Part shown: positions 4,522 to 64,000 of the stretch, in pieces
Position numbering within the stretch: the stretch's first letter is position 1
Layout: each line of letters opens with the position of its first letter
NCBI RefSeq assembly: GCF_014203705.1
Contig: NZ_JACHJR010000001.1
Location: forward strand, 6,758,001-6,822,000
Source: Kitasatospora gansuensis
GTDB lineage: Bacteria > Actinomycetota > Actinomycetes > Streptomycetales > Streptomycetaceae
Direction of reading: 5' to 3'
DNA: 64,000 bases
Translations under genes and position numbers: made by a program
The notes under the pieces: generated by a model
Databases searched by the model: none
Told to the model about the DNA's origin: nothing
Seen by the model: the letters and a program-made list of their open reading frames with translations, nothing else

Positions 4522-4581
4522 TTGGCCGTGTCCGGGTGGGCCGGGTGCCCGAGTGCGGTGTAGAACGGGGGAGTGACGGCA

Positions 4582-5508
4582 GTGGTGACTTCAAGGCAAT
4601 CCGACAGTCCGACGGACGGTGGCACGCTCGGCAAGGCGGACCTGGAGAACTTCCCGGTCGCCCCCGGGTTCCTGCCCGCCGCCTGGCGGGCCGACCTGAT
4701 GGCGATCTACGGGTTCGCCCGGCTGGTGGACGACGCCGGTGACGGCGACCTGGCCGAGCCCGAGCGGGTGGCCGCGCTGCTGGACGTCAAGGGCGCCCCG
4801 GCGGACGACGGCTTCCGGCTCGCCCTGCTGGACGGTCTCGAGCTGGACCTGGACCGGGCCTTCTGCGCCGCGCTCGACCCGAAGGCCGAGAGCCCCCGGC
4901 ACCCGCTGATGCGGGCCCTGGTCCCGCTGATCGACCGTCACCCGGTCACCCCGGAGCCGTTCCGCCGTCTGATCGAGGCCAACCGGGTGGACCAGACCAC
5001 CACCCGCTACCCGACCTACCAGGACCTGGTCGGCTACTGCACGCTCTCCGCCGACCCGGTCGGCCGCCTGGTGCTGGCCGTGGCCGGTTACGGCACCCCC
5101 GAACGGATCGCCTACTCGGACGCGGTCTGCACCGCCCTCCAGGTGGTCGAACACCTCCAGGACGTGGCCGAGGACCTGGGCAGGGGCCGGATCTACCTCC
5201 CCGCCGAGGACCTGGACCGGTTCGGCGTGACCGAGGCCGACCTGGCCGCGCCCAGCGCCGGCCACCAGGTCCGCGAGCTGATCGCCTTCGAGGCGGACCG
5301 GGCGCGCACCCTGCTCGACCACGGCGCCCCGCTGGTGGGTACGGTTCGGGGAAGGCTCCGTCTGCTGCTCGCGGGATTCACCGCGGGCGGGTACGCGGCC
5401 CTGTCGGCCATCGAGGCCGCCGGGTACGACGTGCTCGCCGTACAGGCGAAGCCGGACAAGCGCCGCCTCGCGGTGAAGGCGGCGGCAATCTTCGCGAAGG
5501 GAAGGTGA
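4582..5508 (+). CDS. hpnC: squalene synthase HpnC
   Basis: A 308-residue trans-isoprenyl synthase of the squalene/phytoene family. The two Asp-rich sites are LVDDAGDGD near residue 50 and EHLQDVAED near residue 192, the second being the HpnC variant. In the HpnCDE route HpnC hydrolyses presqualene diphosphate to hydroxysqualene. I place the start at GTG 4582, about 8 bases after GGGGGAG; GTG 4573 is in frame but touches that site, and 4585 is also possible. The stop overlaps the GTG of hpnD (GTGA). It is the first gene of the hopanoid operon after the hairpin at 4487-4521. Confidence 0.9.
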   Translation: MVTSRQSDSPTDGGTLGKADLENFPVAPGFLPAAWRADLMAIYGFARLVDDAGDGDLAEPERVAALLDVKGAPADDGFRLALLDGLELDLDRAFCAALDPKAESPRHPLMRALVPLIDRHPVTPEPFRRLIEANRVDQTTTRYPTYQDLVGYCTLSADPVGRLVLAVAGYGTPERIAYSDAVCTALQVVEHLQDVAEDLGRGRIYLPAEDLDRFGVTEADLAAPSAGHQVRELIAFEADRARTLLDHGAPLVGTVRGRLRLLLAGFTAGGYAALSAIEAAGYDVLAVQAKPDKRRLAVKAAAIFAKGR

Positions 5509-6407
5509 ACGCCCGCGTGGCGGCATCACCACTGGCCTCGGCCCCGGTCATGGCGGCCTACCGGTACTGCGAGGCGGTCACCGCCCTGCAGGCCCGGAAC
5601 TTCAGCTACGGCATCCGGCTGCTGCCCGAGCCCAAGCGGCTCGGCATGTCCGCGCTCTACGCCCTGGCCCGCCGGGTGGACGACATCGGCGACGGCGAGC
5701 TGTCGGCCGAGCGGAAGACCGAGCTGCTCCGGCAGACCCGCGAGCTGCTGGACGAGGTCCGGCTCGGCACGGTCAGTGAGGAGGACACCGACCCGATCAA
5801 GGTCGCACTGGGCGACACCGCCCGGCGTTTCCCGATCGATCTGGGCGGGTTCGACGAGCTGATCGACGGCGTCGAGATGGACCTCAAGGGCGTCGAGTAC
5901 CAGACCTTCGAGGACCTCAAGGTCTACTGCCGCTGCGTGGCCGGATCGATCGGCCGGCTCTCGATCGGGGTGTACGGCTGCGAGGACCCGAAGCTCGGCG
6001 CCGAGTACGCGGACACCCTCGGTCTGGCCCTGCAGCTCACCAACATCCTGCGCGACCTGCGCGAGGACGCGCTGAACGGCCGGGTCTACCTCCCGACCGA
6101 GGACCTGGCTCGATTCGGCTGCGAACAGGGGTTCGCCCTGGACCGGCCGCCGGTCGGCGCGGACTTCACCGGGCTGATCGCCTTCCAGGCCGAGCGGGCC
6201 CAGGAGGCCTTCGCGGACGGCCTGCGGCTGCTGCCACTGCTGGACCGCCGCAGCCGGGCCTGCACGGCCGCGATGGCCGGGATCTACCACCGGCTGCTCG
6301 GCCGGATCGCGGCCGATCCGGAGTCCGTGCTGCAGCGCCGGGTCTCGCTGCCGGGCTGGGAGAAGGCATACGTGGCTCTCTCCGGGCTCGCCGGAGGGCG
6401 TTCTTGA
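5505..6407 (+). CDS. hpnD: presqualene diphosphate synthase HpnD
   Basis: A 300-residue squalene/phytoene synthase paralogue of the preceding gene. Asp-rich motifs DDIGD (59-63) and NILRDLRED (180-188) match the active HpnD type. By family it joins two farnesyl diphosphates into presqualene diphosphate, the substrate for HpnC. The start overlaps the hpnC stop, so the two are translationally coupled. A gap of 106 bases without an evident hairpin follows before hpnE; it may hold an internal promoter. Confidence 0.92.
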   Translation: MNARVAASPLASAPVMAAYRYCEAVTALQARNFSYGIRLLPEPKRLGMSALYALARRVDDIGDGELSAERKTELLRQTRELLDEVRLGTVSEEDTDPIKVALGDTARRFPIDLGGFDELIDGVEMDLKGVEYQTFEDLKVYCRCVAGSIGRLSIGVYGCEDPKLGAEYADTLGLALQLTNILRDLREDALNGRVYLPTEDLARFGCEQGFALDRPPVGADFTGLIAFQAERAQEAFADGLRLLPLLDRRSRACTAAMAGIYHRLLGRIAADPESVLQRRVSLPGWEKAYVALSGLAGGRS

Positions 6408-6513
6408 TTCTCTCGGCGATTATGTCACGCTGTGTCAGCACGCATTCACCCGGAACCGGTCCGGCGCCCGCCTCCGGTGACCGCCGGGACGATCACATCA
6501 GGGGGAGGGGCAG

Positions 6514-7908
6514 ATGACGGCACGGCACGACTCCAAGCGCCCCACCGCCGTGGTGGTCGGCGGCGGCCTGGCCGGGATCACGGCCGCCCTGCGGCTGGCC
6601 GAGGCGGACCATCGAGTCACCCTGGTGGAGTCCCGGCCGCGGCTCGGCGGCCTGGCCTTCTCGTTCCGGCGCGGGGAGCTGACGGTCGACAACGGCCAGC
6701 ACGTCTTCCTGCGCTGCTGCACCGCCTACCGGGGTCTGATCGACCGGCTGGGTGCGGGCCGTCTGGTGGATCTTCAGCCCCGGCTCGACGTCCCGGTGCT
6801 GGGCGTCTCGCCCGACGGCCGGCGCACCCTGGGCCGGCTGCGCCGGGCCGGGCTGCCCGTCCCGCTGCACCTGGCCGGCAGCCTGGCGACCTACCCGCAC
6901 CTGTCCGCCGCCGACCGGCTGCGGGTGGTGCGGGCCGCGCTCGCGCTCAAGCTGCTCGACCTGGACGACCCGGCGCTGGACGAGATCTCGTTCGGCGACT
7001 GGCTGCGCCGCCAGGGCCAGAACGCGGCCACCCTGGCCGCGATGTGGGACCTGGTCGGGGTGGCCACCCTGAACGCCACCGCCGATCAGACCTCGCTGGC
7101 GCTGGCCGCGATGGTCTTCAAGACCGGCCTGCTCTCCGACCCGGGCGCCTCCGACATCGGGATGGCGAACGTCCCGCTCGGCGCGATCCACCACGACGCG
7201 GCCCGCGCCGAGCTGGAGCGGGCCGGGGTGCGGGTGCTGCTGCGGGCCCGCGCGGTGGAGCTGAAGAGCGCCGAGCAGCACGCCGTCCGCCTCGACGGCG
7301 ACGAGCTGCTGACCGCCGACACCGTGGTGCTGGCGGGGGCTCAGGAGTCCGCCGCCGCGCTGCTCCCGGCCGGCGCGATCGACCGGCAGGAGCGGCTGGC
7401 CGAACTCGGCCACGCGCCGATCCTGAACGTGCACGTGGTCTACGACCGCAAGCTGCTGCGCCGACCGTTCTTCGCCGCGCTCGGCTCGCCGGTGCAGTGG
7501 GTCTTCGACCGTACGCCTCACTCGGGTCTGGCGGTGCAGGGCGCGCAGTACCTGGCGCTTTCGCAGTCCGCCGTGCAGGACGAGATCGAGCTGCCGGTGG
7601 CCGAGCTGAGGGCGCGTTACCTGCCCGAGCTGGAGCGGCTGCTGCCCGCCGCCAAGGGCGCCGAGGTGCTGGACTTCTTCGTCACCCGGGAGCGGACCGC
7701 GACCTTCGCGCCCGCGCCGGGCACCGCGCCGCTCCGCCCGGCCGCCCGGACCAACGTGCCAGGACTGCTGCTGGCCGGTTCGTGGACCGCCACCGGCTGG
7801 CCCGCGACCATGGAGAGCGCCGTGCGCAGCGGCCACGCGGCCGCCGACGCCGCCCTCGCCGTCGGCCGCCGCCCGGTGGACCGGGGCGACGGAAGGTGGC
7901 CCCGATGA
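6514..7908 (+). CDS. hpnE: hydroxysqualene dehydroxylase HpnE
   Basis: A 464-residue FAD-dependent amine-oxidase-like protein. The dinucleotide site VVVGGGLAG lies at residues 13-21 with the downstream acidic residue in VTLVESRPRLGGLAF, and the C-terminal FAD motif PGLLLAGSWTATGWPATMES near residue 430. In the HpnCDE pathway it reduces hydroxysqualene to squalene. ATG 6514 follows the purine-rich GGGGGAGGGG. The stop overlaps the ATG of the polyprenyl synthase gene. Confidence 0.92.
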   Translation: MTARHDSKRPTAVVVGGGLAGITAALRLAEADHRVTLVESRPRLGGLAFSFRRGELTVDNGQHVFLRCCTAYRGLIDRLGAGRLVDLQPRLDVPVLGVSPDGRRTLGRLRRAGLPVPLHLAGSLATYPHLSAADRLRVVRAALALKLLDLDDPALDEISFGDWLRRQGQNAATLAAMWDLVGVATLNATADQTSLALAAMVFKTGLLSDPGASDIGMANVPLGAIHHDAARAELERAGVRVLLRARAVELKSAEQHAVRLDGDELLTADTVVLAGAQESAAALLPAGAIDRQERLAELGHAPILNVHVVYDRKLLRRPFFAALGSPVQWVFDRTPHSGLAVQGAQYLALSQSAVQDEIELPVAELRARYLPELERLLPAAKGAEVLDFFVTRERTATFAPAPGTAPLRPAARTNVPGLLLAGSWTATGWPATMESAVRSGHAAADAALAVGRRPVDRGDGRWPR

Positions 7909-9086
7909 CCTCGGCCCCCGTCCGATCAGTGACCGCATCAGACGGGCCGCTCGCCGCGGCCTCATCACCCCAGCAGGGAGAGGGAACGTACGTGGAGCAT
8001 CGCACCGGAACCGCCGCCTCCGTCCAGGAGGCACCTGTGCCGGACGCGCTCTCGGTGCCGGAGCTGCTGGCCCGCGGCCGGAAGCTCTGCACCCCGCCGC
8101 TGCGTTCGGCGGTGGCCCGGCTGGCCGCGCCGATGGACACGGTGGCCGCGTACCACTTCGGCTGGATCGACCGGGACGGCACGCCGATGGCGGGGGACGG
8201 CGGCAAGGCCGTGCGTCCGGCGCTGGCGCTGCTGTCGGCCGAGGCGGTCGGCGCGCCCGCCGTGGCGGGGGTGCCCGGCGGGGTCTCGGTTGAACTGGTG
8301 CACAACTTCTCGCTGTTGCACGATGACCTGATGGACGGTGACGAGACGCGGCGGCACCGGGCCACGGCCTGGACGGTCTTCGGCCCGGCCCAGGCGATCC
8401 TGGTCGGCGACGCGCTGGCCACCCTGGGCACCGAGGTGCTGCTGGACGCCGCCGTGACCGGGGGCGCCTCCGCCACCGACGCGGCCCGGGCCGTCCGGCT
8501 GATCACCACCGCGACCCGCAAGCTGATCGACGGTCAGGCCCAGGACCTCTCGTTCGAGCACCGCGACCTGGTGACGGTCGAGGAGTGCCTGGAGATGGAG
8601 GGCAACAAGACCGGTGCCCTGCTGGCCGCCGCCTCGGCGATCGGCGCGGTGCTGGCCGGGGCCGACGACCGGACCGCCGACGCGCTGGAGCGGTACGGCC
8701 ACCATCTCGGCCTGGCCTTCCAGGCGGTGGACGACCTGCTCGGCATCTGGGGCGCCACCGAGGTGACCGGCAAGCCGCACTGGGGCGACCTGCGCCAGCG
8801 CAAGAAGTCGCTGCCGGTGGCCGCTGCGCTGGCCGAGGGTGGCGAAGCCTCCCGTCGGCTGGCCGCCGAGCTGGCCGACCCGGCCGGCCGGGGCGAGGAG
8901 AGCGAGCAGCAGCTCGCCGCCCGCGCCGCGCTGATCGAGCAGGCCGGCGGCCGGTCCTGGACCCAGGAAGAGGCCCGCCGCCAGCACAAGACCGCCCTCG
9001 CCGCTCTGGACGAGGTGCCGATGGCCGACGAGGTGCGCCAGCGCTTCGTCGCACTCGCCGAATTCGTGGTGGTACGAGAGAGGTGA
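7905..9086 (+). CDS. polyprenyl diphosphate synthase (probable farnesyl diphosphate synthase)
   Basis: A 393-residue trans-prenyl diphosphate synthase that would supply farnesyl diphosphate to HpnD. The first Asp-rich motif is LLHDDLMDGDETRR (140-146), and the conserved QAQD and KTG sites follow. The second motif reads VDDLLGIWG (276-283), so the final Asp of DDxxD is Gly. ATG 7905 overlaps the hpnE stop and has GGAAGG 8 bases upstream; GTG 7992 also has a good site (GGGAGAGGG) and would remove a 29-residue low-complexity leader. Product length cannot be settled from sequence alone. Confidence 0.87.
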   Translation: MTSAPVRSVTASDGPLAAASSPQQGEGTYVEHRTGTAASVQEAPVPDALSVPELLARGRKLCTPPLRSAVARLAAPMDTVAAYHFGWIDRDGTPMAGDGGKAVRPALALLSAEAVGAPAVAGVPGGVSVELVHNFSLLHDDLMDGDETRRHRATAWTVFGPAQAILVGDALATLGTEVLLDAAVTGGASATDAARAVRLITTATRKLIDGQAQDLSFEHRDLVTVEECLEMEGNKTGALLAAASAIGAVLAGADDRTADALERYGHHLGLAFQAVDDLLGIWGATEVTGKPHWGDLRQRKKSLPVAAALAEGGEASRRLAAELADPAGRGEESEQQLAARAALIEQAGGRSWTQEEARRQHKTALAALDEVPMADEVRQRFVALAEFVVVRER

Positions 9087-9093
9087 CGTTGAG

Positions 9094-11184
9094 GTGACAG
9101 CAACCGCGGACGGCCGGCTCGACCCTGAGTACGATCCCGAGCCGGCCGCGGTGGGCGAACGCCCGCCGGTCCCCGAACGGCTGAACGGCCGTCAGGTGAC
9201 GGTGGCCCAGGCGGCAGCGGTGCCGCTCGGGTCGAGACGGTGGGAACCCGACGGACCGACGGCGGTAGTACCGTCCGACGATCCCACTCCGGCCGAGGCG
9301 CTGGCCCGCGCCACCGCCGAGCTGTTGTCACGCCAGAGCCCCGAGGGCTGGTGGAAGGGCGACCTGGAGACCAACGTCACCATGGACGCCGAGGACCTGT
9401 TACTGCGTCAGTTCCTCGGGATCAGGACGGCCGAGCACACCGAGGCCACCGCCGCCTGGATCCGCTCCCAGCAGCGCGAGGACGGCACCTGGTCGACCTT
9501 CTACGGCGGCCCCGCCGAGCTCTCCACCACGGTCGAGGCGTACGTCGCGCTCAAACTCGCGGGCGACGACCCGAACGCCCCGCACATGCTGGCGGCGGCC
9601 CGGCACGTCCGGGCGGCCGGCGGCATCGCGGCCAGCCGGGTGTTCACCCGGATCTGGCTGGCGCTGTTCGGCTGGTGGCCCTGGGAACGGCTGCCGGAGA
9701 TGCCGCCGGAGATCATCTTCCTGCCGCGCTGGGTGCCGCTGAACATCTACGCGTTCGGCTGCTGGGCTCGGCAGACCATCGTCCCGCTGACCGTGGTCTC
9801 GGCCCACCGCCCGGTCTGCCCCGCGCCGTTCGACCTGGACGAGCTGCACACCGACCCGGCGAACCCGTACCCGCTCCGGCCGCTGCCCCCGCTGAACGGC
9901 TGGGACGGCGTCTTCGAGCGGCTCGACCTGGCCCTGCACGCCTACCACCGGCACGCCGTCAAACCACTCCGTCGGGTGGCGCTCGCCCAGGCCGGCCGGT
10001 GGATCGTCGAACGCCAGGAGGCGGACGGCTGCTGGGGCGGCATCCAGCCCCCCGCGGTCTACTCGCTGATCGCCCTGCACCTGCTCGGCTACGAGCTCGA
10101 TCACCCGGTGATGAAGGCCGGGCTGGCCGCCTTCGAACGCTTCACCGTGCACACCGAGGACGGCGCGCGCTGGCTGGAGGCCTGTCAGTCCCCGGTCTGG
10201 GACACCTGCCTGGCCACCATCGCGCTGCGCGACGCGGGCCTGCCCGCCGACCACCCTGCGCTGGTCTCGGCGGTGGACTGGATGCTCGCCGAGGAGATCA
10301 CCAGGCCGGGCGACTGGGCCGTTCAGCGGCCCCGGCTGGCGCCCGGCGGCTGGGCGTTCGAGTTCGAGAACGACAACTATCCCGACATCGACGACACCGC
10401 CGAGGTGGTGCTCGCGCTCCAGCGGGTCGACCACCCCGACCGGGAGAAGCTCACCGGCGCGGTCGAACGCGGCGTCGAGTGGAACCTCGGCATGCAGTCC
10501 AAGAACGGCGCCTGGGGCGCCTTCGACGTCGACAACACCAGCACCCTGCCGAACAAGCTGCCGTTCTGCGACTTCGGCGAGGTGGTCGACCCGCCCTCCG
10601 CCGACGTCACCGCGCACGTGGTGGAGATGCTCGCCGAGACCGGCCGGGCCGACGACCGGCGGACCAGGCGCGGCATCGACTGGCTGCTGAAGAACCAGGA
10701 GGCGGACGGCTCCTGGTTCGGCCGCTGGGGCACCAACTACATCTACGGCACCGGCTCGGTACTGCCCGCCCTGGTCGCGGCCGGGCTGCCGACCGGGCAC
10801 CCGGCGATCCGACGCGCCGTCAGCTGGCTGGAGGACCGGCAGAACCCGGACGGCGGCTGGGGCGAGGACATGCGCTCGTACGAGGACCCGGAGCAGTGGT
10901 CCGGGCGCGGCGACTCCACCGCCTCGCAGACCGCCTGGGCCCTGATGGCCCTGCTGGCGGCCGGCGAGGGCCCGGACGGCGCGCGCGGCGAGTCGGTCGA
11001 GCGCGGCGTGCAGTGGCTCTGCCACACCCAGCTGCCCACCGGCAGCTGGGACGAGCCGCAGTTCACCGGGACGGGCTTCCCGTGGGACTTCTCGATCAAC
11101 TACCACCTGTACCGGCTGGTCTTCCCGGTCACCGCCCTCGGCCGCTACCTGCACGGCAGCCCGCTGACGGGGGGTCGGAAGTGA
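9094..11184 (+). CDS. shc: squalene-hopene cyclase, with a TTA codon
   Basis: A 696-residue membrane-associated cyclase converting squalene to hopene/hopanol. The catalytic DXDD motif is DIDDTAE, with D431, D433 and D434. Repeated QW-type segments are present, for example QEADGSWFGRWGTNYIYGTG and QNPDGGWGEDM. The first 70 residues are a variable leader. Codon 103 (9400-9402) is TTA, which in streptomycetes needs the bldA tRNA. GTG 9094 follows GAGAGG; the stop overlaps the hpnG start (GTGA). The gene is full length for the family. Confidence 0.95.
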   Translation: MTATADGRLDPEYDPEPAAVGERPPVPERLNGRQVTVAQAAAVPLGSRRWEPDGPTAVVPSDDPTPAEALARATAELLSRQSPEGWWKGDLETNVTMDAEDLLLRQFLGIRTAEHTEATAAWIRSQQREDGTWSTFYGGPAELSTTVEAYVALKLAGDDPNAPHMLAAARHVRAAGGIAASRVFTRIWLALFGWWPWERLPEMPPEIIFLPRWVPLNIYAFGCWARQTIVPLTVVSAHRPVCPAPFDLDELHTDPANPYPLRPLPPLNGWDGVFERLDLALHAYHRHAVKPLRRVALAQAGRWIVERQEADGCWGGIQPPAVYSLIALHLLGYELDHPVMKAGLAAFERFTVHTEDGARWLEACQSPVWDTCLATIALRDAGLPADHPALVSAVDWMLAEEITRPGDWAVQRPRLAPGGWAFEFENDNYPDIDDTAEVVLALQRVDHPDREKLTGAVERGVEWNLGMQSKNGAWGAFDVDNTSTLPNKLPFCDFGEVVDPPSADVTAHVVEMLAETGRADDRRTRRGIDWLLKNQEADGSWFGRWGTNYIYGTGSVLPALVAAGLPTGHPAIRRAVSWLEDRQNPDGGWGEDMRSYEDPEQWSGRGDSTASQTAWALMALLAAGEGPDGARGESVERGVQWLCHTQLPTGSWDEPQFTGTGFPWDFSINYHLYRLVFPVTALGRYLHGSPLTGGRK

Positions 11185-11972
11185 ACGCCGACCGCCCGGG
11201 GCGGGCCGCAGGCGAAGGAGCTGTCGGTTCGGCGCAGCCTGCCGCAGGCATGGCTGCCGTCGGCCTCCCGAAGCGCGCCGCAGGCGAAAAGCTCCTCGGC
11301 CCGCCGCAGCCCGCCGCAGGCGCCGCCGCTCCCCTGCTGGTGGTCTGCGCGCTAGGCCCCGAGGTCTGGGCGCTGCGCGGCGGCGACTGGGCCGTGCCGC
11401 CGGTGCTGGTCCGGACCGGGGTCGGGCGGGTCAGGGCGCGGCGCTGCGTCGGCAACCTGCTCGCGCTGGACGGCTACGGGGCGCTGGTGGTGGCCGGTTT
11501 CGGCGCGGCGGTGGGGCCTGGCGTCGAGCCCGGCGACATCATCGTGGCGGACGCCGTCCGCAACGGCGAGGGCGAGGAGTGGCCGTTGGAGTCCGCCAAG
11601 GCGATGGCCGCCGAACTCACCGCCCGCGGCCTGACCGCGCACATCGGCCCGCACCACACCGCCGACCGCGTGGTGCGGGGTGCGGAGCGCCGCGCCCTGT
11701 ACGCCACCGGTGCCCGGGCGGTGGACATGGAGGCGGCCGCCGTGCTGGCGGCCCGGGCCGAGCTGCGGCCCGCCCTGCCCACCGCCGTCCTGCGGGTGGT
11801 GGTCGACACCCCCACCCGCGAACTGCTCCGCCCCGGCACCCTGCCGGCCGGGCTGCGCGCCTGGCGCACCCTGCGGGTCGCCGTCCCGGCGCTCACCGCC
11901 TGGTACCGACAGGCCGTCACCGACCCGATCCATGCACCACAGTCCTCGACGCTCCCTCAGGAGGCGAGCTAG
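11181..11972 (+). CDS. hpnG: HpnG-type hopanoid nucleosidase/phosphorylase with repeat leader
   Basis: A 263-residue member of the nucleoside phosphorylase (PNP_UDP_1) fold. HpnG removes adenine from adenosylhopane to give ribosylhopane. The core starts near residue 51 (PLLVVCALGPEVWALR), with GFGAAVGPGVEPGDIIVAD and the substrate motif AVDMEAAAV in place. The first 45 residues are unlike the family and consist of a 12-residue tandem repeat (see 11205-11330). GTG 11181 overlaps the shc stop; a shorter in-frame start such as ATG 11250 cannot be excluded. hpnH follows after two bases. Confidence 0.85.
   Translation: MNADRPGRAAGEGAVGSAQPAAGMAAVGLPKRAAGEKLLGPPQPAAGAAAPLLVVCALGPEVWALRGGDWAVPPVLVRTGVGRVRARRCVGNLLALDGYGALVVAGFGAAVGPGVEPGDIIVADAVRNGEGEEWPLESAKAMAAELTARGLTAHIGPHHTADRVVRGAERRALYATGARAVDMEAAAVLAARAELRPALPTAVLRVVVDTPTRELLRPGTLPAGLRAWRTLRVAVPALTAWYRQAVTDPIHAPQSSTLPQEAS
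11205..11330 (+). repeat. 36-bp in-frame tandem repeat in the hpnG leader
   Basis: GCCGCAGGCG (once GCCGCAGGCA) recurs at 11205, 11241, 11277 and 11313, exactly 36 bases apart. Each unit is 12 codons beginning Ala-Ala-Gly; three units are whole and the fourth merges into the enzyme core. Units 1 and 3 are the most alike (AAGE..; Gly at position 8; Gln-Pro end). It behaves as a minisatellite that keeps the reading frame. Confidence 0.85.
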
Positions 11973-11974
11973 TC

Positions 11975-12997
11975 ATGGCAATGCCGCTGCGCCAGACCAT
12001 GCGGGTCAGCACCTACCTCATGCAGCAGAAGTTGATCAAGCGGCGGGACAAGTTCCCGCTGATCGTGGAGCTGGAGCCGCTGTTCGCCTGCAACCTCGCC
12101 TGTGAGGGCTGCGGGAAGATCCAGCACCCGGCCGGGGTGCTCAAGCAGCGGATGCCGGTCGCCCAGGCGGTCGGCGCGGTCCTGGAGTCCGGCGCCCCGA
12201 TGGTGTCGATCGCGGGCGGCGAACCGCTGATGCACCCGCAGATCGACGAGATCGTCCGCCAACTGGTGGCCCGCCGCAAGTACGTCTTCCTCTGCACCAA
12301 CGCGCTGCTGCTGCGCAAGAAGCTGGAGAAGTTCACCCCCTCGCCGTACCTGACCTTCACCGTGCACATCGACGGGCTGCGCGAGCGGCACGACGCCTCG
12401 GTGGCCAAGGAGGGCACCTTCGACGAGGCGGTGGAGGCGATCAAGGAGGCCAAGCGGCAGGGCTTCCGGGTCACCACCAACTCGACCTTCTTCAACACCG
12501 ACACCCCGCAGACCATCATCGAGGTGCTCGACTACCTGAACGACGAGCTGCACGTCGACGAGATGATGATCTCCCCGGCGTTCGCCTACGAGAAGGCCCC
12601 CGACCAGGAGCACTTCCTCGGCGTCGAGCAGACCAGGGAGCTGTTCCGGAAGACCTTCGCGGGCGGCAACCGGCGCCGCTGGCGCCTCAACCACAGCCCG
12701 CTCTTCCTGGACTTCCTGGAGGGCAAGGTGGACTTCGAGTGCACCGCCTGGGGCATCCCGAACTACTCGCTGTTCGGCTGGCAGCGCCCTTGCTACCTGA
12801 TGTCGGACGGCTATGTGCCGACCTACCAGGAGCTGATCGAGAAGACCGACTGGGCCAAGTACGGCCGCGGCAAGGACCCGCGCTGCGAGAACTGCATGGC
12901 GCACTGCGGGTACGAACCAACCGCCGTACTGGCCACCATGGGCTCGCTCAAGGAGTCCATCCGGGCCGTCAAGGAGACCCTGACCAGCAAGGCCTGA
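11975..12997 (+). CDS. hpnH: radical SAM adenosylhopane synthase HpnH
   Basis: A 340-residue radical SAM enzyme joining a 5'-deoxyadenosyl group to hopene. The cluster motif is CNLACEGC with C39, C43 and C46, one residue pair longer between the last cysteines than in many families but standard for HpnH (CxxxCxxC). The SAM-binding GGEPLM lies near residue 88, and a C-terminal cysteine group (CENCMAHCG) is present. ATG 11975 follows AGGAGG by 10 bases. A terminator-like hairpin lies downstream, before dxs. Confidence 0.93.
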   Translation: MAMPLRQTMRVSTYLMQQKLIKRRDKFPLIVELEPLFACNLACEGCGKIQHPAGVLKQRMPVAQAVGAVLESGAPMVSIAGGEPLMHPQIDEIVRQLVARRKYVFLCTNALLLRKKLEKFTPSPYLTFTVHIDGLRERHDASVAKEGTFDEAVEAIKEAKRQGFRVTTNSTFFNTDTPQTIIEVLDYLNDELHVDEMMISPAFAYEKAPDQEHFLGVEQTRELFRKTFAGGNRRRWRLNHSPLFLDFLEGKVDFECTAWGIPNYSLFGWQRPCYLMSDGYVPTYQELIEKTDWAKYGRGKDPRCENCMAHCGYEPTAVLATMGSLKESIRAVKETLTSKA

Positions 12998-13002
12998 GCC
13001 CC

Positions 13003-13028
13003 GTGGGGCCCGCTCCGGCGGGCCCCAC
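13003..13028 (+). terminator. perfect hairpin between hpnH and dxs
   Basis: GTGGGGCCCGC and GCGGGCCCCAC form an 11-bp perfect stem with a TCCG loop, starting five bases after the hpnH stop. No T-run follows, which is usual for GC-rich actinomycete terminators. The 108-base gap 12998-13105 is where a gcpE/ispG gene stands in some related hopanoid clusters, but no such gene is here. Confidence 0.6.
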
Positions 13029-13105
13029 AACAGGCGAGCCACCGGTGATGACCGCAGGCTGAGTACAGACCGTCATCAGCCAGACCCGAGCCGCGAGGTG
13101 AAGCC

Positions 13106-15016
13106 ATGTCACTTCTGTCCACCGTCCAGGGGCCCGCCGATCTCCGCCGCCTCTCGCCGGCCGAACTCGGGCAGCTGGCCGACGAGATCCGCGACTTCCT
13201 GGTGGACGCGGTGACCAGGACCGGCGGCCACCTCGGCCCCAACCTGGGCGTGGTCGAGCTGACCATCGCGCTGCACCGGGTGTTCGACTCCCCGTACGAC
13301 CGCATCCTCTGGGACACCGGGCACCAGGCGTACGTGCACAAGCTGCTCACGGGCCGTCAGGACTTCTCCCGGCTGCGGATGCAGGGCGGTCTCTCCGGCT
13401 ACCCGTCCCGCGCCGAGTCCGAGCACGACCTGATCGAGAACTCGCACGCCTCCACCGCCCTCGGCTACGCCGACGGCCTGGCCAAGGCGCACCAGCTGCT
13501 CGGCACCCCGGGCCGGCACACCGTCGCGGTGATCGGCGACGGCGCGCTCACCGGCGGGATGGCCTGGGAGGCGCTGAACAACATCGCCGAGGCGACCGAC
13601 CGCCCGCTGGTGATCGTGGTCAACGACAACGAGCGCTCGTACGCGAGGACCATCGGCGGGCTGGCCCACCACCTCGCCACGCTGCGCACCACGCAGGGCT
13701 ACGAACGCTTCCTGGCGCTCGGCAAGGAGGCGCTGCAGCGCACCCCGCTGGTCGGCCAGCCGCTGTTCGGCGCGCTGCACGGGGCGAAGAAGGGCTTCAA
13801 GGACGCGTTCACCCCGCAGGGAATGTTCGAGGACCTCGGTCTCAAGTACCTCGGTCCGATCGACGGCCACGACCTCGGCGCGGTGGAGCAGGCGCTCCGG
13901 CAGGCCAGGGGCTTCGGCGGCCCGGTGATCGTGCACTGCCTGACCGTCAAGGGCCGCGGCTACCGGCCCGCCGAGCAGGACGAGGCGGACCGGTTCCACG
14001 CGGTCGGCGCGATGGACCCGTACACCTGCCTGCCGGTCTCGCCCTCCGCCGGGGTCTCCTGGACCTCGGTGTTCGGCAGCGAGCTGCTCGCGCTCGGCGC
14101 CGAGCGTCCCGACGTGGTGGCGATCACCGCCGCGATGCTGCAGCCGGTCGGGCTGGCCAAGTTCGCCGCCGAGTACCCGGAGCGGACCTTCGACGTCGGC
14201 ATCGCCGAGCAGCACGCGGTGGCCAGTGCGGCGGGCCTGGCCACCGGCGGGCTGCACCCGGTGGTCGCGGTCTACGCGACCTTCCTGAACCGGGCCTTCG
14301 ACCAGGTCCTGATGGACGTCGCGCTGCACAAGCTGGGCGTCACCTTCGTGCTCGACCGCGCGGGCGTCACCGGCAACGACGGCGCCTCGCACAACGGGAT
14401 GTGGGACATGTCGCTCCTGCAGGTGGTCCCGGGCCTGCGGCTGGCCGCCCCGCGCGACGCCGACCAGCTGCGGGCCCAGCTCCGGGAGGCGGTGGACGTG
14501 CCGGACGCGCCCACCGTGGTCCGCTTCCCCAAGGGAGACCTCGGCCCCGCCGTCCCCGCGCTGGAGCGGATCGGCGGCGTGGACGTTCTGCAGCGCACCG
14601 GCCCCACCCCGGAGATCCTGCTGGTGGCCGTCGGCGCGATGGCCCCCGCCTGCCTGGACGCCGCCGCGCTGCTGCTCGCCGAGGGCTTCACCTGCACCGT
14701 GGTCGACCCGCGCTGGGTCAAGCCGGTCGACCCCGCGCTGACCGAACTGGCCGCCGCCCACCGCCTGGTGGTCACCGTCGAGGACAACGGCCGGGCCGGC
14801 GGCGTCGGTTCGGCGATCGCCCAGGCGATGCGGGACGCCGATGTGGACGTGCCGCTGCGCGATCTCGGCATCCCGCAGGAGTTCCTGGCGCACGCCGGGC
14901 GGGGAGAGCTGATGGAGGAGATCGGCCTCACCGGCACCGGCGTGGCCGCCCAGACCGCCGTCTTCGCCAAGTACCTACTGACCGACCGAGGAGCGAACCA
15001 GCGCCATGCCGGCTGA
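13106..15016 (+). CDS. dxs: 1-deoxy-D-xylulose-5-phosphate synthase
   Basis: A 636-residue thiamine diphosphate enzyme, full length, condensing pyruvate and glyceraldehyde 3-phosphate in the first step of the MEP isoprenoid route. Visible are the [10 protein letters not shown] region, the thiamine-binding [24 protein letters not shown], the transketolase [12 protein letters not shown] segment and the C-terminal domain. ATG 13106 follows GAGGTGA. The 3' end overlaps hpnO by 11 bases. Its place inside the hopanoid cluster suggests a dedicated copy that raises isoprenoid supply. Confidence 0.95.
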
Positions 15017-16394
15017 CCGTCTCGACCTCTCCGCACTGCTCGCCGAACGCGGCGCCGAACGCTACGAGTTGCAGGCCAAGTACCTCAACCCGCAGCTGGC
15101 CCGGATGCTGCACACGATCGGCTTCGACAAGTTCTACGAGCGTGCGGAGGGGGCCTACTTCTACGACGCCGAAGGCAACGACTACCTGGACATGCTGGCC
15201 GGGTTCGGCATCTTCGCGCTCGGGCGGCACCACCCGGTGGTCCGGTCCGCCGTGCAGCAGGTGATGGACCTCGAGCTGCCCGACCTCACCCGCTTCGACT
15301 GCTCGCCGCTGCAGGGGCTGCTGGCCGAGCAACTGCTGTCGTACACCCCGGGATTGGACCGGGTGTTCTTCGGCAACAGCGGTACGGAGGCGGTCGAGAC
15401 CGCGTTGAAGTTCGCCCGGTACGCCACCGGTCGGAAGCGGATCCTCTACTGCGACCACGCCTTCCACGGCCTGACGGCAGGCTCGCTCTCGGTCAACGGC
15501 GAGAACGGCTTCCGCAAGGGCTTCGACCCGCTGCTGCCGGACACCGCCGTCCCGCTCGGTGATCTCGGCGCGCTGGCCCGGGAGTTGCGCAAGGGCGACG
15601 TGGCGGCGCTGATCGTGGAGCCGATCCAGGGCAAGGGCGTGCTCGCCCCGCCGCCCGGCTGGCTGCTCGCGGCCCAGCAACTGCTGCACGAGCACAAGGC
15701 GTTGCTGATCTGCGACGAGGTGCAGACCGGCATCGGCCGGACCGGCTCGTTCTTCGCCTACCAGCAGGAGGAGGGCGTCCTCCCCGACCTGGTCTGCGCG
15801 GCCAAGGCACTGTCGGGCGGGTACGTCCCGGTCGGGGCCACGCTGGGGAAGGGCTGGATCTTCGAGAAGGTCTACTCCTCGATGGACCGGGTGCTGGTGC
15901 ACTCCGCCAGCTTCGGCTCCAACGCCCAGGCGATGGCGGCCGGGCTGGCCACGCTCCATGTGATGCGCGAGGAGAAGGTGGTCGAGAACGCCCACCGGGT
16001 GGGCGAGCTCTTCCGCTCCCGGCTCGCCGAACTGGTGGACAAGTACGAGCTGCTGGCCGAGGTGCGCGGCCGGGGCCTGATGATCGGCATTGAGTTCGGC
16101 CGGCCCAAGTCGCTGAAGCTGCGCACCGGTTGGACAGCCCTCCAGGCGGCCCGGAAGGGCCTGTTCGCGCAGATGGTGGTGGTGCCGCTGCTCCAGCGCC
16201 ACCGCATCCTCACCCAGGTCTCGGGTGACCACCTGGAGGTGATCAAGCTGATCCCGCCGCTGATCATCACCGAACGCGAGGTCGACCGCTTCGTCACCGC
16301 CTTCACCGAGGTGATGGACGACGCCCACCGCGGCAGCGGCCTGATGTGGGACTTCGGCCGCACCTTGGTCAAGCAGGCGGTCGGCGGCCGGTAG
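15006..16394 (+). CDS. hpnO: HpnO-type PLP aminotransferase
   Basis: A 462-residue class III aminotransferase. PLP contacts include [25 protein letters not shown] and the Schiff-base Lys in CAAKALSGG (K267). In hopanoid clusters HpnO converts ribosylhopane-derived intermediates to 35-aminobacteriohopanetriol. ATG 15006 lies inside dxs after GAGGAGCGAAC. It ends the recognised hopanoid genes; 88 bases separate it from the next gene. Other class III substrates such as ornithine fit the fold, but the operon position supports HpnO. Confidence 0.9.
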
Positions 16395-16482: not shown

Positions 16483-17835
16483 GTGACATACAGTCAGCTT
16501 GATCATCATGCGGCGTTTCGGCCCGCCTCCGCCACCGCTCTGTTACGCCACCGTGGCTTCGAGGTGTGCGCGGACGTCCTGCACTATCCGGGGTCGGCGA
16601 CCGAGGCGCTCGCGGAGCTCGCATCGTGCCGCACCACCACCGAACTGCTGGAGTCGGCGCACCGGATGTGGTGCGGTCCGGCCTGCGGCCGCACGGTGGC
16701 GTGCACGTTCCTGCACTATCCGAGGGCCGCTCCGGCCCCAGTGATCCGCCGCGCCGGGCGCGAGCGCTACAACCGGGACACCGCGGGCCTGTTCCAGCTG
16801 ATGGGCGGCGACGGATACGCCGAGGACACCCCGCAGACCCACGGGACGAACCTCTGGCCGCTGCTGCTCGGGATCACGGCGAGGGCGGACGCCGGGGAGG
16901 GGGAGCGGATCGATTACTCGGACTGGGCGCGGAAGGGTGACGCGACGGCCGCCGAGGTGGTGGCCTACGCCTGCCGGGACGTCCTGCAGTGGGTGGCCAG
17001 TTGGTCCGGCGAGCACTTCTCGCAGGACCCGACCTATCTGCGCTACGTCGCCGCGAGCACCATCGTCGACGACCTGTGCATCCCGCCGCTGGACCTGGTG
17101 GGCGGACGGTTCCGGCTCTACGGGCACGGGGTGGACGACCTGGTCGCGGCCATGGACGAGGAGGGCTGGGGGCATGACGCGGTGCACGCCCTGCTCTCGC
17201 TGGTCCGGCAGTGGGTGTACCAGTACGCCGAGAAGTTGGACCATGGGCAGGGCGGTCTGCACGCGCGGCTCAACGACTCCACCGGCATCTGGGACGCCTG
17301 CGTCTTCCGGATGCACTCCGCCAACAACTACGGGTGCGGCATCGCGGTGGCCCGCGCCGGTGACACCGGTCCGGTCTCCTTCGACTGGCTGATGGGCAGT
17401 GGGATGGCTGACGCCATCTCGATGGACCTGGCCAAGTCGGCGCTGGACGTGTACCGGCTGGACGCCCACCAGCCCACCGCCAACGGGGAGTTCGACGCGG
17501 TCCGGCAGCAGGCGTACCACTCGGTCTACCTCGACCTGATCGACGACCTGGTGGAGAGCGGGGCGCCCGAGGAGCTGGTGCACTACGGCCGGGCGGGCCT
17601 GCAGTACGTCCAGATGATGGAGCGTTACCACGAGCGCCGCCTCGGGCGCCGACTGCTGCTCCGGCCGGCCGTGAGCGCTCGGCTGCGCGGGCTGTTCGGG
17701 GCCGAGGCCGTGGAGCCGTGGGTCGAGGGGCGGTACCGGGCGCAGCGGGCCCGCAGCGCGGCCGGCCCGGCCGGGTGGGTGCCGGGCGGGCCGACGGGGC
17801 TGGGGACTTCGGGGGCGTACGTCAGAGGGTGGTGA
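16483..17835 (+). CDS. unrecognised 450-residue protein behind the hopanoid cluster, TTA codon
   Basis: I do not recognise this protein. It is soluble-looking, helix-rich, rich in Trp, Tyr and His, with no signal peptide and no clear membrane helix. Cysteines and acidic clusters stand out: CGPACGRTVACTF (64-76), VDDLC (195-199), GMADAISMDLAK (307-318) and DLIDDLVESG (351-360). The last 35 residues are Gly/Arg/Pro-rich. GTG 16483 has only a weak ribosome site (GGGTGG); an upstream in-frame ATG is followed by a stop. Codon 21 (16543-16545) is TTA. It runs in the same direction as hpnO, 88 bases behind it, and no hairpin was seen between them, so it may belong to the hopanoid transcript. Confidence 0.75.
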   Translation: MTYSQLDHHAAFRPASATALLRHRGFEVCADVLHYPGSATEALAELASCRTTTELLESAHRMWCGPACGRTVACTFLHYPRAAPAPVIRRAGRERYNRDTAGLFQLMGGDGYAEDTPQTHGTNLWPLLLGITARADAGEGERIDYSDWARKGDATAAEVVAYACRDVLQWVASWSGEHFSQDPTYLRYVAASTIVDDLCIPPLDLVGGRFRLYGHGVDDLVAAMDEEGWGHDAVHALLSLVRQWVYQYAEKLDHGQGGLHARLNDSTGIWDACVFRMHSANNYGCGIAVARAGDTGPVSFDWLMGSGMADAISMDLAKSALDVYRLDAHQPTANGEFDAVRQQAYHSVYLDLIDDLVESGAPEELVHYGRAGLQYVQMMERYHERRLGRRLLLRPAVSARLRGLFGAEAVEPWVEGRYRAQRARSAAGPAGWVPGGPTGLGTSGAYVRGW

Positions 17836-48904: not shown

Positions 48905-48990
48905 CCCTGCATCACCTATAAGCGGGAGCCGACGGAGGGCCAAGGAACTGTCGTTGGACGGTGCTCCGTGGACGGCCGGACGATCCTGGC

Positions 48991-49551
48991 ATGACAACCT
49001 CCGCCGCGTTACCCAGGGTTGACCGTACCGAGCGGGCGGACGCGCTGGTCGCCGAGCTGCGCCTGGCCGTCGGCCGGGGCCTGCCGCCCGACCTCACCGC
49101 CCACCTGGCCGCCGAGTGCCTGCTGCCGCACCTCGGGGCGCCGGACCTGCTCACCGGGGCGCAGCTGACCGGTGACGCCGCGCAGTACCGCCAGCACCTG
49201 CTGCACGCCGAGCCGGACGGCAGCTTCTCGCTGGTCGCGCTGGTCTGGCTGCCCGGCCAGCACACCAGCGTGCACGACCACCTGTCCTGGTGCGCCACCG
49301 GCGTCCACCTGGGCGAGGAGACCGAACGCCGCTACCGGCTGGTCCCGGACGGCCCGACCGCCCGGCTGGTGGCCACCGGCGACGTGGTCAACCCGAGCGG
49401 TACGGTCTGCGGCTTCGCCCCGCCCGGGGACATCCACCGGGTCCGGAACAGTGGCACCGGCACCGCCGTCTCGCTGCACGTCTACGGCGCCGACCTGGCC
49501 CGGCTCGGCAGCAGCATCCGCCGGGTCTACCAACTGCCCACCGAGGGCTGA
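48991..49551 (+). CDS. cupin cysteine dioxygenase-family protein, TTA codon
   Basis: A 186-residue single cupin. The metal site is HTSVHDHLSWCATGVHLGEE (two His), with a third His in GDIHRVRN. The family oxidises cysteine or 3-mercaptopropionate to the sulfinate. Codon 7 (49009-49011) is TTA. ATG 48991 lacks a good ribosome site; an in-frame GTG at 48961 would add ten residues. A TATAAG box at about 48916 could serve a promoter. The downstream YeiH gene starts three bases after the stop. Confidence 0.85.
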   Translation: MTTSAALPRVDRTERADALVAELRLAVGRGLPPDLTAHLAAECLLPHLGAPDLLTGAQLTGDAAQYRQHLLHAEPDGSFSLVALVWLPGQHTSVHDHLSWCATGVHLGEETERRYRLVPDGPTARLVATGDVVNPSGTVCGFAPPGDIHRVRNSGTGTAVSLHVYGADLARLGSSIRRVYQLPTEG

Positions 49552-62578: not shown

Positions 62579-64000
62579 TCAGCCGAGACCGCCGAGCTTG
62601 AGGTCGAGCTGATCCACGGCGGCGGTGTCGCCGAGCTCGACGAAGATGTCGCGGGCGTTCTCCCAGGCCTCCCCGGCCGTGCCGGGTTCGCCCGCGGCGT
62701 GAGCGGTGTCGCCGAGGTGGGTGAGCAGGGAGGCCTCGTTGAACCGGTCGCCGAACTCGCGGTAGATGTCGCGGGCCTGTTCGTAGCAGCTGATGGCCTC
62801 TCGGTGCCGGCCCACGTTGTGGTGCACGAAGCCCAGGGTGTCCAGGGTGGCGCTCTCCCCGCTGCGGTCGCCGATCTCCCGCTGGCGGGCGAGGGCGCGC
62901 CCGCAGCAGCTCACCGCTTCGGCGTACCGGCCGAGTTGGGTGTGGCACCAGCCCATGTTGTTGAGTGCCCTGGCCTCACCGACCTGGTGGCCCGCGGCCT
63001 GATACTTCGTCAGCGCCAAGGTCGCCTGCTCCAGCGCCCGGTGGAAGTCGAGCTGCCGCTCGAACACCAGGGTCAGGTTGTTGTGGCAGTGCGCCTGGCC
63101 GAGCGGGTCGTCGAGTCCCTCGAAGAGCGCCACCGCCCGGTGCAGCAGGCGGTCGGCCTCCTCGTAGCGGCCCATCCTGGCGTTGGCGCGGCCGAGTTCG
63201 CGGTGCGCCGCCGCACTGCCCGGCCGGTCGCCGAGCCGGTCCGCGGCGTCCAGGGCGGCCCGCTGGGTGGTCGCCCAGTCGTGCCAGTGGCCGCGCTGCT
63301 CGAGGTAGGTGGACATGCTCCGGGCCAGCAGCCCCACGTAGGCGTCGTGGGCCGAGTCGACCGCCGCCAGCAGGGTCTGGTGCTCGGAGGCGAACCAAGC
63401 CAGCGCGCTGTCGCGGTCGGTGAAGGCCAGCGGCGGCACCCCGGGCGTCGGCGCGGGGAGTTCGAACGGGTCGCGGTGGTCGAGCATCGCGCCGGCGGCG
63501 TGCGCGGTGTGCAGGTAGTAGTCGACCAGCCGTTGCCGGGCGAAGACCTGCTCCACGGGCGTGACGTCGTCGTGGGCGAGCTCGGTGGCGTAGGCCCGGA
63601 GCAGGTCGTGCATGCCGTACCGGTCGGGCCCGATCGGGTGCACCAGGTGGGCGCGGGTGAGCATGGTCAGGGCCGCGCGGGTGTCAGCCGGGCTGCGGCC
63701 GGCCAGGGCGGCCGACGCGCTCAGCGAGATGTGCGGGCCGAGCTGGAGGCCGAGCAGCCGGAAGACCCGGGCGGCGGTGGCGGGCAGGTGCTGGTAGGAC
63801 CAGGAGAAGACCGCGCTGATCGGGTTGCCGACCGAGTCCAGCATGCTCAACCGCCTGCGCCGGTCGGCGAGTTCGGAGACCAGGTACGGGAGCGGGGTGG
63901 TGCGCAGGGTGGCGGCGAGTTCGGCGGCCACCCGGAGGGCCAGGGGTAACCCCACGCACTGGGCGGCCAGTTCCGCGCTGACCGCCGGTTCGCTGTCGAC
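62579..64000 (-). CDS. AfsR-like NB-ARC/TPR regulator, C-terminal part (5' end outside window)
   Basis: The frame is open to base 64000, so the start lies to the right; 473 codons are visible. The sequence begins within the NB-ARC module (AELAAQCVGLPLALRVAAEL), continues with the winged-helix part (FSWSYQHLPATAARVFRLLGL, MHDLLRAYATELA) and then TPR repeats (WCHTQLGRYAEAV, FVHHNVGRHREAISCYEQA). This matches the C-terminal half of SARP/AfsR-type regulators; whether a SARP domain precedes is unseen. A TTA codon lies at 63947-63949. Confidence 0.85.
   Translation of the reverse strand, partial: VDSEPAVSAELAAQCVGLPLALRVAAELAATLRTTPLPYLVSELADRRRRLSMLDSVGNPISAVFSWSYQHLPATAARVFRLLGLQLGPHISLSASAALAGRSPADTRAALTMLTRAHLVHPIGPDRYGMHDLLRAYATELAHDDVTPVEQVFARQRLVDYYLHTAHAAGAMLDHRDPFELPAPTPGVPPLAFTDRDSALAWFASEHQTLLAAVDSAHDAYVGLLARSMSTYLEQRGHWHDWATTQRAALDAADRLGDRPGSAAAHRELGRANARMGRYEEADRLLHRAVALFEGLDDPLGQAHCHNNLTLVFERQLDFHRALEQATLALTKYQAAGHQVGEARALNNMGWCHTQLGRYAEAVSCCGRALARQREIGDRSGESATLDTLGFVHHNVGRHREAISCYEQARDIYREFGDRFNEASLLTHLGDTAHAAGEPGTAGEAWENARDIFVELGDTAAVDQLDLKLGGLG

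Follow-up and report, generated by a model that had tools for sequence, protein, structure and literature searches.

A genus-conserved TTA codon in the squalene-hopene cyclase gene of Kitasatospora, a probable target of the bldA switch

Messages containing UUA await the bldA tRNA in Streptomyces, and a review of frequent TTA genes that takes S. coelicolor as its reference includes a single Kitasatospora, K. setae (PMC4255298 and its Table 2). The closest described system is the TTA switch of adpA (bldH) in Streptomyces and Kitasatospora. Like shc, the squalene-hopene cyclase gene studied here, adpA has one genus-conserved TTA that is, or for shc presumably would be, read by bldA, and it is found in the present genome too. 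The two differ in that adpA encodes a master regulator and has its TTA in all streptomycetes analysed, whereas shc encodes a biosynthetic enzyme and its TTA is Kitasatospora-restricted and lost in some species. Among 213 Streptomyces species, 18 orthogroups had TTA in at least half, 11 of them at a fixed position (PMC10327506). The best of the conserved Streptomyces orthogroups had TTA in 87% of species, a level similar to the 81% found here for Kitasatospora shc. Unlike the present work, the available portions of the two Streptomyces surveys (PMC4255298, PMC10327506) do not mention hopanoid genes, and Kitasatospora is either represented by K. setae alone or absent. Among the papers covered, mainly open-access ones, no title, abstract or searched passage on bldA or TTA codons with hopanoids, squalene-hopene cyclase or Kitasatospora reports a TTA codon in shc. 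In these terms shc would be a new, genus-wide conserved target of a known switch.

Control of hopanoid genes has been described in Streptomyces. Expression of the S. coelicolor hop cluster is highest in aerial development (PMC3765725, citing Poralla 2000). In transition-phase S. griseus, ribosome pausing scored higher at TTA than at any other codon, and in that species hopE, which corresponds to shc, was up 3.2-fold versus 1.3-fold for hopD (PMC8914203). The S. griseus control point lies between hopD and hopE, like here at the step between the squalene genes and the cyclase, but it is a transcript 3'-end or processing feature, whereas in Kitasatospora it would be a codon inside shc (PMC8914203). 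Control thus seems to fall on one and the same step of the operon in both genera, though by different means.

The gene studied here lies in a 64,000-nucleotide stretch of K. gansuensis DNA, called the window. It comes fifth in an hpn cluster spanning 4573 to 16394, the features of which are as follows.

4573-5508, + strand: hpnC, squalene synthase, TTA-free (TIGR03464, above cut-off)
5505-6407, + strand: hpnD, presqualene diphosphate synthase, TTA-free (TIGR03465, above cut-off)
6514-7908, + strand: hpnE, hydroxysqualene dehydroxylase, TTA-free (TIGR03467, above cut-off)
7905-9087, + strand: polyprenyl diphosphate synthase of the cluster, named hpnF here, TTA-free (polyprenyl synthase families)
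9094-11184, + strand: shc, squalene-hopene cyclase, 696 aa, GTG at 9094 to TGA at 11184 (TIGR01507, Pfam)
9400-9402, + strand: TTA, codon 103 in shc, encoding the middle Leu in the conserved AED-LLL-RQF motif (in-frame reading, motif alignment)
11181-11972, + strand: hpnG-like phosphorylase, GTG start, TTA-free (TIGR03468, 60 bits, below cut-off)
11975-12997, + strand: hpnH, adenosyl-hopene transferase, TTA-free (TIGR03470, 538 bits)
13106-15016, + strand: dxs-like gene of the cluster, TTA-free (cluster position and sequence)
15006-16394, + strand: hpnO-like class III aminotransferase, TTA-free (PF00202)

The Shc protein scored 783 bits against TIGR01507, well above the curated cut-off of 431, and matched both Pfam SQHop_cyclase domains, N and C. 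The family match and the company of hpnC, D, E and H both identify the gene as a squalene-hopene cyclase, and its one match in the genome was the sole copy found. A sequence-only reading of this DNA had reported a TTA at codon 103 of shc, and the codon is indeed there, in frame in a real gene (9400-9402), as the only TTA among the Leu codons of shc. The same reading spoke of Streptomyces, but the host is a Kitasatospora; the closest shc relatives of this genome, which is 8.3 Mb in size, are from Kitasatospora. Its observation that the genes before shc contain no TTA was correct for hpnC through hpnF, and TTA was likewise absent from hpnG, hpnH, dxs and hpnO of this cluster. The GTG start of the hpnG-like gene overlaps the shc stop (GTGA), which makes translational coupling from shc to hpnG plausible. 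The polyprenyl synthase gene (7905-9087, + strand) gave its best score, 395 bits and thus below the cut-off of 450, with the model for the polyprenyl transferase cargo of family 2 encapsulins. Directly after the cluster is a 450-aa ORF (16483-17835, + strand) that matched no Pfam or NCBIfam model and is present in only 2/70 genus genomes; it has a TTA at codon 21 and its similarity to a relative begins at residue 24, so that the TTA may precede the true start. Elsewhere in the window, a cysteine dioxygenase-like ORF (48961-49551, + strand) has one TTA, at codon 17, and a TPR protein ORF (62579-63955, - strand), the start of which is uncertain, has one at codon 3.

In two sampled stretches of this genome, TTA made up 33 of 24,705 Leu codons (0.13%), and given this background a single TTA in a long gene is unsurprising on its own. 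What exceeds chance is its conservation. With a degenerate pattern for the surroundings of the motif, shc was located in all 70 Kitasatospora genomes. A TTA within the Asp-Leu-Leu-Leu motif was present in 57 of the 70 (81%): at the middle Leu in 33 and at the first Leu in 24, with none in the remaining 13. Outside Kitasatospora, the motif carried a TTA in only 1 of 325 Streptomycetaceae genomes (G264); the family set comprised 395 genomes, 358 of which matched a motif pattern not requiring TTA. The shc genes of Streptomyces and of the Kitasatospora clade that has lost the TTA encode the motif alike, without it. Because independent assemblies agree, sequencing error is ruled out. One record labelled Kitasatospora aureofaciens NRRL B-2183 (contig JODU01000024.1) has an shc only 74% identical and without the TTA, unlike other K. 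aureofaciens records, and is probably a misnamed Streptomyces; conversely, several records named Streptomyces sp. (e.g. NRRL S-350) cluster with Kitasatospora by shc.

The restriction of TTA to one place was also seen across the hpn clusters of 62 Kitasatospora species. Of 26,887 aligned Leu codons, 52 were TTA, and all were in shc. Codon 103 accounts for 30 of them, codon 102 for 20 and codon 58 for 2, which places 50 within the motif. The other eight hpn genes had zero TTA in the 62 clusters. In stretches sampled from two genomes, about 0.1% of the Leu codons are TTA; at that frequency, the aligned codons should include some 25 to 35 TTAs, scattered over the clusters.

The bldA switch is available in this genome. 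A tRNA-Leu with anticodon TAA (bldA) was found by ARAGORN and by pattern, and adpA has its interdomain TTA. The bldA pattern was present in 66/70 Kitasatospora genomes, and in at least one, G031, the match deviates from the usual bldA sequence. The adpA TTA was found in all 68 genus genomes in which the motif was found, including species without the shc TTA; because it persists in those species, loss of the shc TTA is not due to loss of the bldA system. Of 30 middle-TTA species, 15 have CTT or TTG, both rare Leu codons, directly 5' of the shc TTA (9397-9399 in the window, and its counterparts in relatives), versus a background of 2.5%, and the codon 5' of the adpA TTA was TCT or TCA in 68/68 genomes. 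An AT-rich 5' neighbour may belong to conserved TTA sites.

To follow the history of the codon, a tree of six concatenated hpn cluster proteins was used. Middle-TTA species were found at the base of and throughout Kitasatospora, while the first-TTA species formed a single clade with one loss inside it. The motif TTA was lost in a clade of about 12 species (eleven in the tree) and in one further species, most of which have no TTA anywhere in shc; the K. phosalacinea/cheerisanensis group and NRRL S-350 are among the species without it. The Streptomyces outgroups include G264. Most simply, the TTA was gained once at the base of Kitasatospora, shifted once to the neighbouring codon and lost twice, and G264 gained its own separately. 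The shift could reflect local slippage, or a second TTA that arose in the adjacent codon before the first disappeared. The neighbours of codon 103 are 2 of 422 Leu columns, so that a chance synonymous gain would land there about 1 time in 200 (about 0.5%). In species that lost the motif TTA, no compensating TTA was gained in the other hpn genes. The codon 17 TTA of shc in the sister species G011 and G012 was considered as compensation and rejected; the neighbours have GTA or CCA there, and the N-terminus is variable and rich in rare codons, so that chance is likely.

A mutation-selection Leu-codon model, fitted to 289 columns on the cluster tree, gave codon 103 a rate of 0.10 times the mean (lnL -21.1; with the mean rate imposed, -38.6). 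Codons 102 and 104 were ordinary, at 0.75 and 1.0 times the mean. TTA was observed at codon 103 in 30 of 61 tips and at codon 102 or 103 in 49. For a TTA at the root, the probability that at least 30/61 tips keep it was 0.001 at the mean rate and 0.81 in the slowest rate class, and given such strong rate variation among sites TTA retention alone is not decisive. The same reservation applies to the finding that the TTA is kept in orthologues more than neighbouring synonymous codons are, as would be expected of a bldA target. Among middle-TTA species there were nine synonymous changes at codon 102, eleven at codon 105 and ten at codon 109; in this flank comparison the codon 103 counts were limited to TTA-bearing species and are not independent evidence. 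A pairwise comparison with G006, in which 4/4 TTAs in shared orthologues were conserved versus 51/206 TTG, CTT and CTA codons, is too small a sample, and one of the four TTAs, in a valyl-tRNA synthetase frame, is probably upstream of the true start. That valyl-tRNA synthetase-like ORF, with a conserved TTA at codon 31 in a conserved leader probably before the true start, lies at about 5.11-5.51 Mb of contig C1 of this genome (loci L206-L225); in the same region is a 150-aa protein with no NCBIfam match and a conserved TTA at codon 113. Taken together, the retention, the next-door relocation, the absence of TTA elsewhere in the operon and the ordinary change of the flanks make selection on the shc TTA codon well supported.

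Neutral or nearly neutral persistence, in which a TTA gained once at the base lingers since its one-step synonymous neighbours TTG and CTA are also rare, is an unlikely account. Other rare Leu codons are common to about half of the species (e.g. CTT at hpnC column 262, in 30/62), and a frequency-weighted Leu-codon model, in which TTA can exit only via rare codons, predicts high retention. We did not adopt that model, as TTA becomes artificially sticky in it; when escape to the commoner TTG is allowed, as in the mutation-selection model, a root TTA is expected in a mean of only 5.7/61 tips at the mean rate. Neutral persistence also leaves unexplained the next-door gain of TTA (2/422 columns, about 0.5%) in a lineage without the original, and the absence of TTA from the other eight hpn genes.

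Even less probable is a constitutive slow spot that serves co-translational folding or membrane targeting of the cyclase without any developmental switch. Codon 102 gives the site the look of a slow cluster (a rare Leu in 15/30 species versus 2.5%), but Streptomyces and the loss clade have the same motif without TTA, and most of the protein is encoded well downstream of the TTA, which has itself shifted to a neighbouring codon. The five bases TTACT are common to both TTA positions and might be a DNA or RNA element in shc, such as an operator, an antisense promoter or a processing site, and the hop cluster of S. coelicolor does have an antisense RNA, albeit one opposite hopC (PMC3765725). We consider such an element very improbable: only five bases are shared, the shift is of three bases, and third positions are free on both sides. 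A longer DNA motif is disfavoured because the flanking synonymous sites vary freely.

We propose that the shc TTA is probably a conserved bldA-dependent translational gate on the committed step of hopanoid synthesis, with squalene synthesis left ungated. The UUA calls for the bldA tRNA-Leu(UAA), a tRNA that does not become functional until late in Streptomyces, and while it is lacking, translation would be held up some 100 codons into shc. Squalene would be made early and be cyclised to hopene only once bldA is active. Through the GTGA overlap, such a delay could reduce hpnG as well, and perhaps the genes that follow. We infer that in Kitasatospora bldA would be limiting, that Shc production would depend on it and that its timing would match aerial growth. 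An early position in shc fits the bias of streptomycete TTAs to the 5' part of genes (PMC4255298). Some points speak against the gate. All motif TTAs in shc are followed by C, a context that has been linked to bldA-independent translation. In some genes, TTA is translated in bldA mutants (PMC4932002).

The earlier claim that the codon puts the hopanoid pathway under bldA control is favoured by the genus-wide conservation, the TTA-free state of the other hpn genes, and a genome that has both bldA and a TTA in adpA, but in its wording the whole pathway was too broad. Because the upstream squalene genes hpnC-F are TTA-free, the gate falls on cyclisation, which alone would be gated directly; any effect on hpnG and the genes after it would have to come from coupling or polarity. 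As the shc of Streptomyces hardly ever bears this TTA, the codon cannot account for the timing of hopanoids in S. coelicolor. The gate would also be dispensable, judging by the species that have lost the motif TTA.

More tentatively, and with rather less than even confidence, we suggest that selection is for a UUA near the start of the cyclase and not for the exact codon, such that one lineage shifted the gate to the neighbouring codon yet retained it, and that it takes the place of the Streptomyces control point at the same step. If this is true, the timing of hopene synthesis itself would be selected across two genera with different mechanisms. The role of hopanoids in filamentous actinomycetes is still debated, and the gate, together with the species in which it has naturally moved or been lost, would offer a direct test of hopanoid timing, in that one synonymous change would uncouple hopene synthesis from development and leave the protein untouched. 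A core lipid enzyme would also join the conserved bldA targets, a list dominated by regulators.
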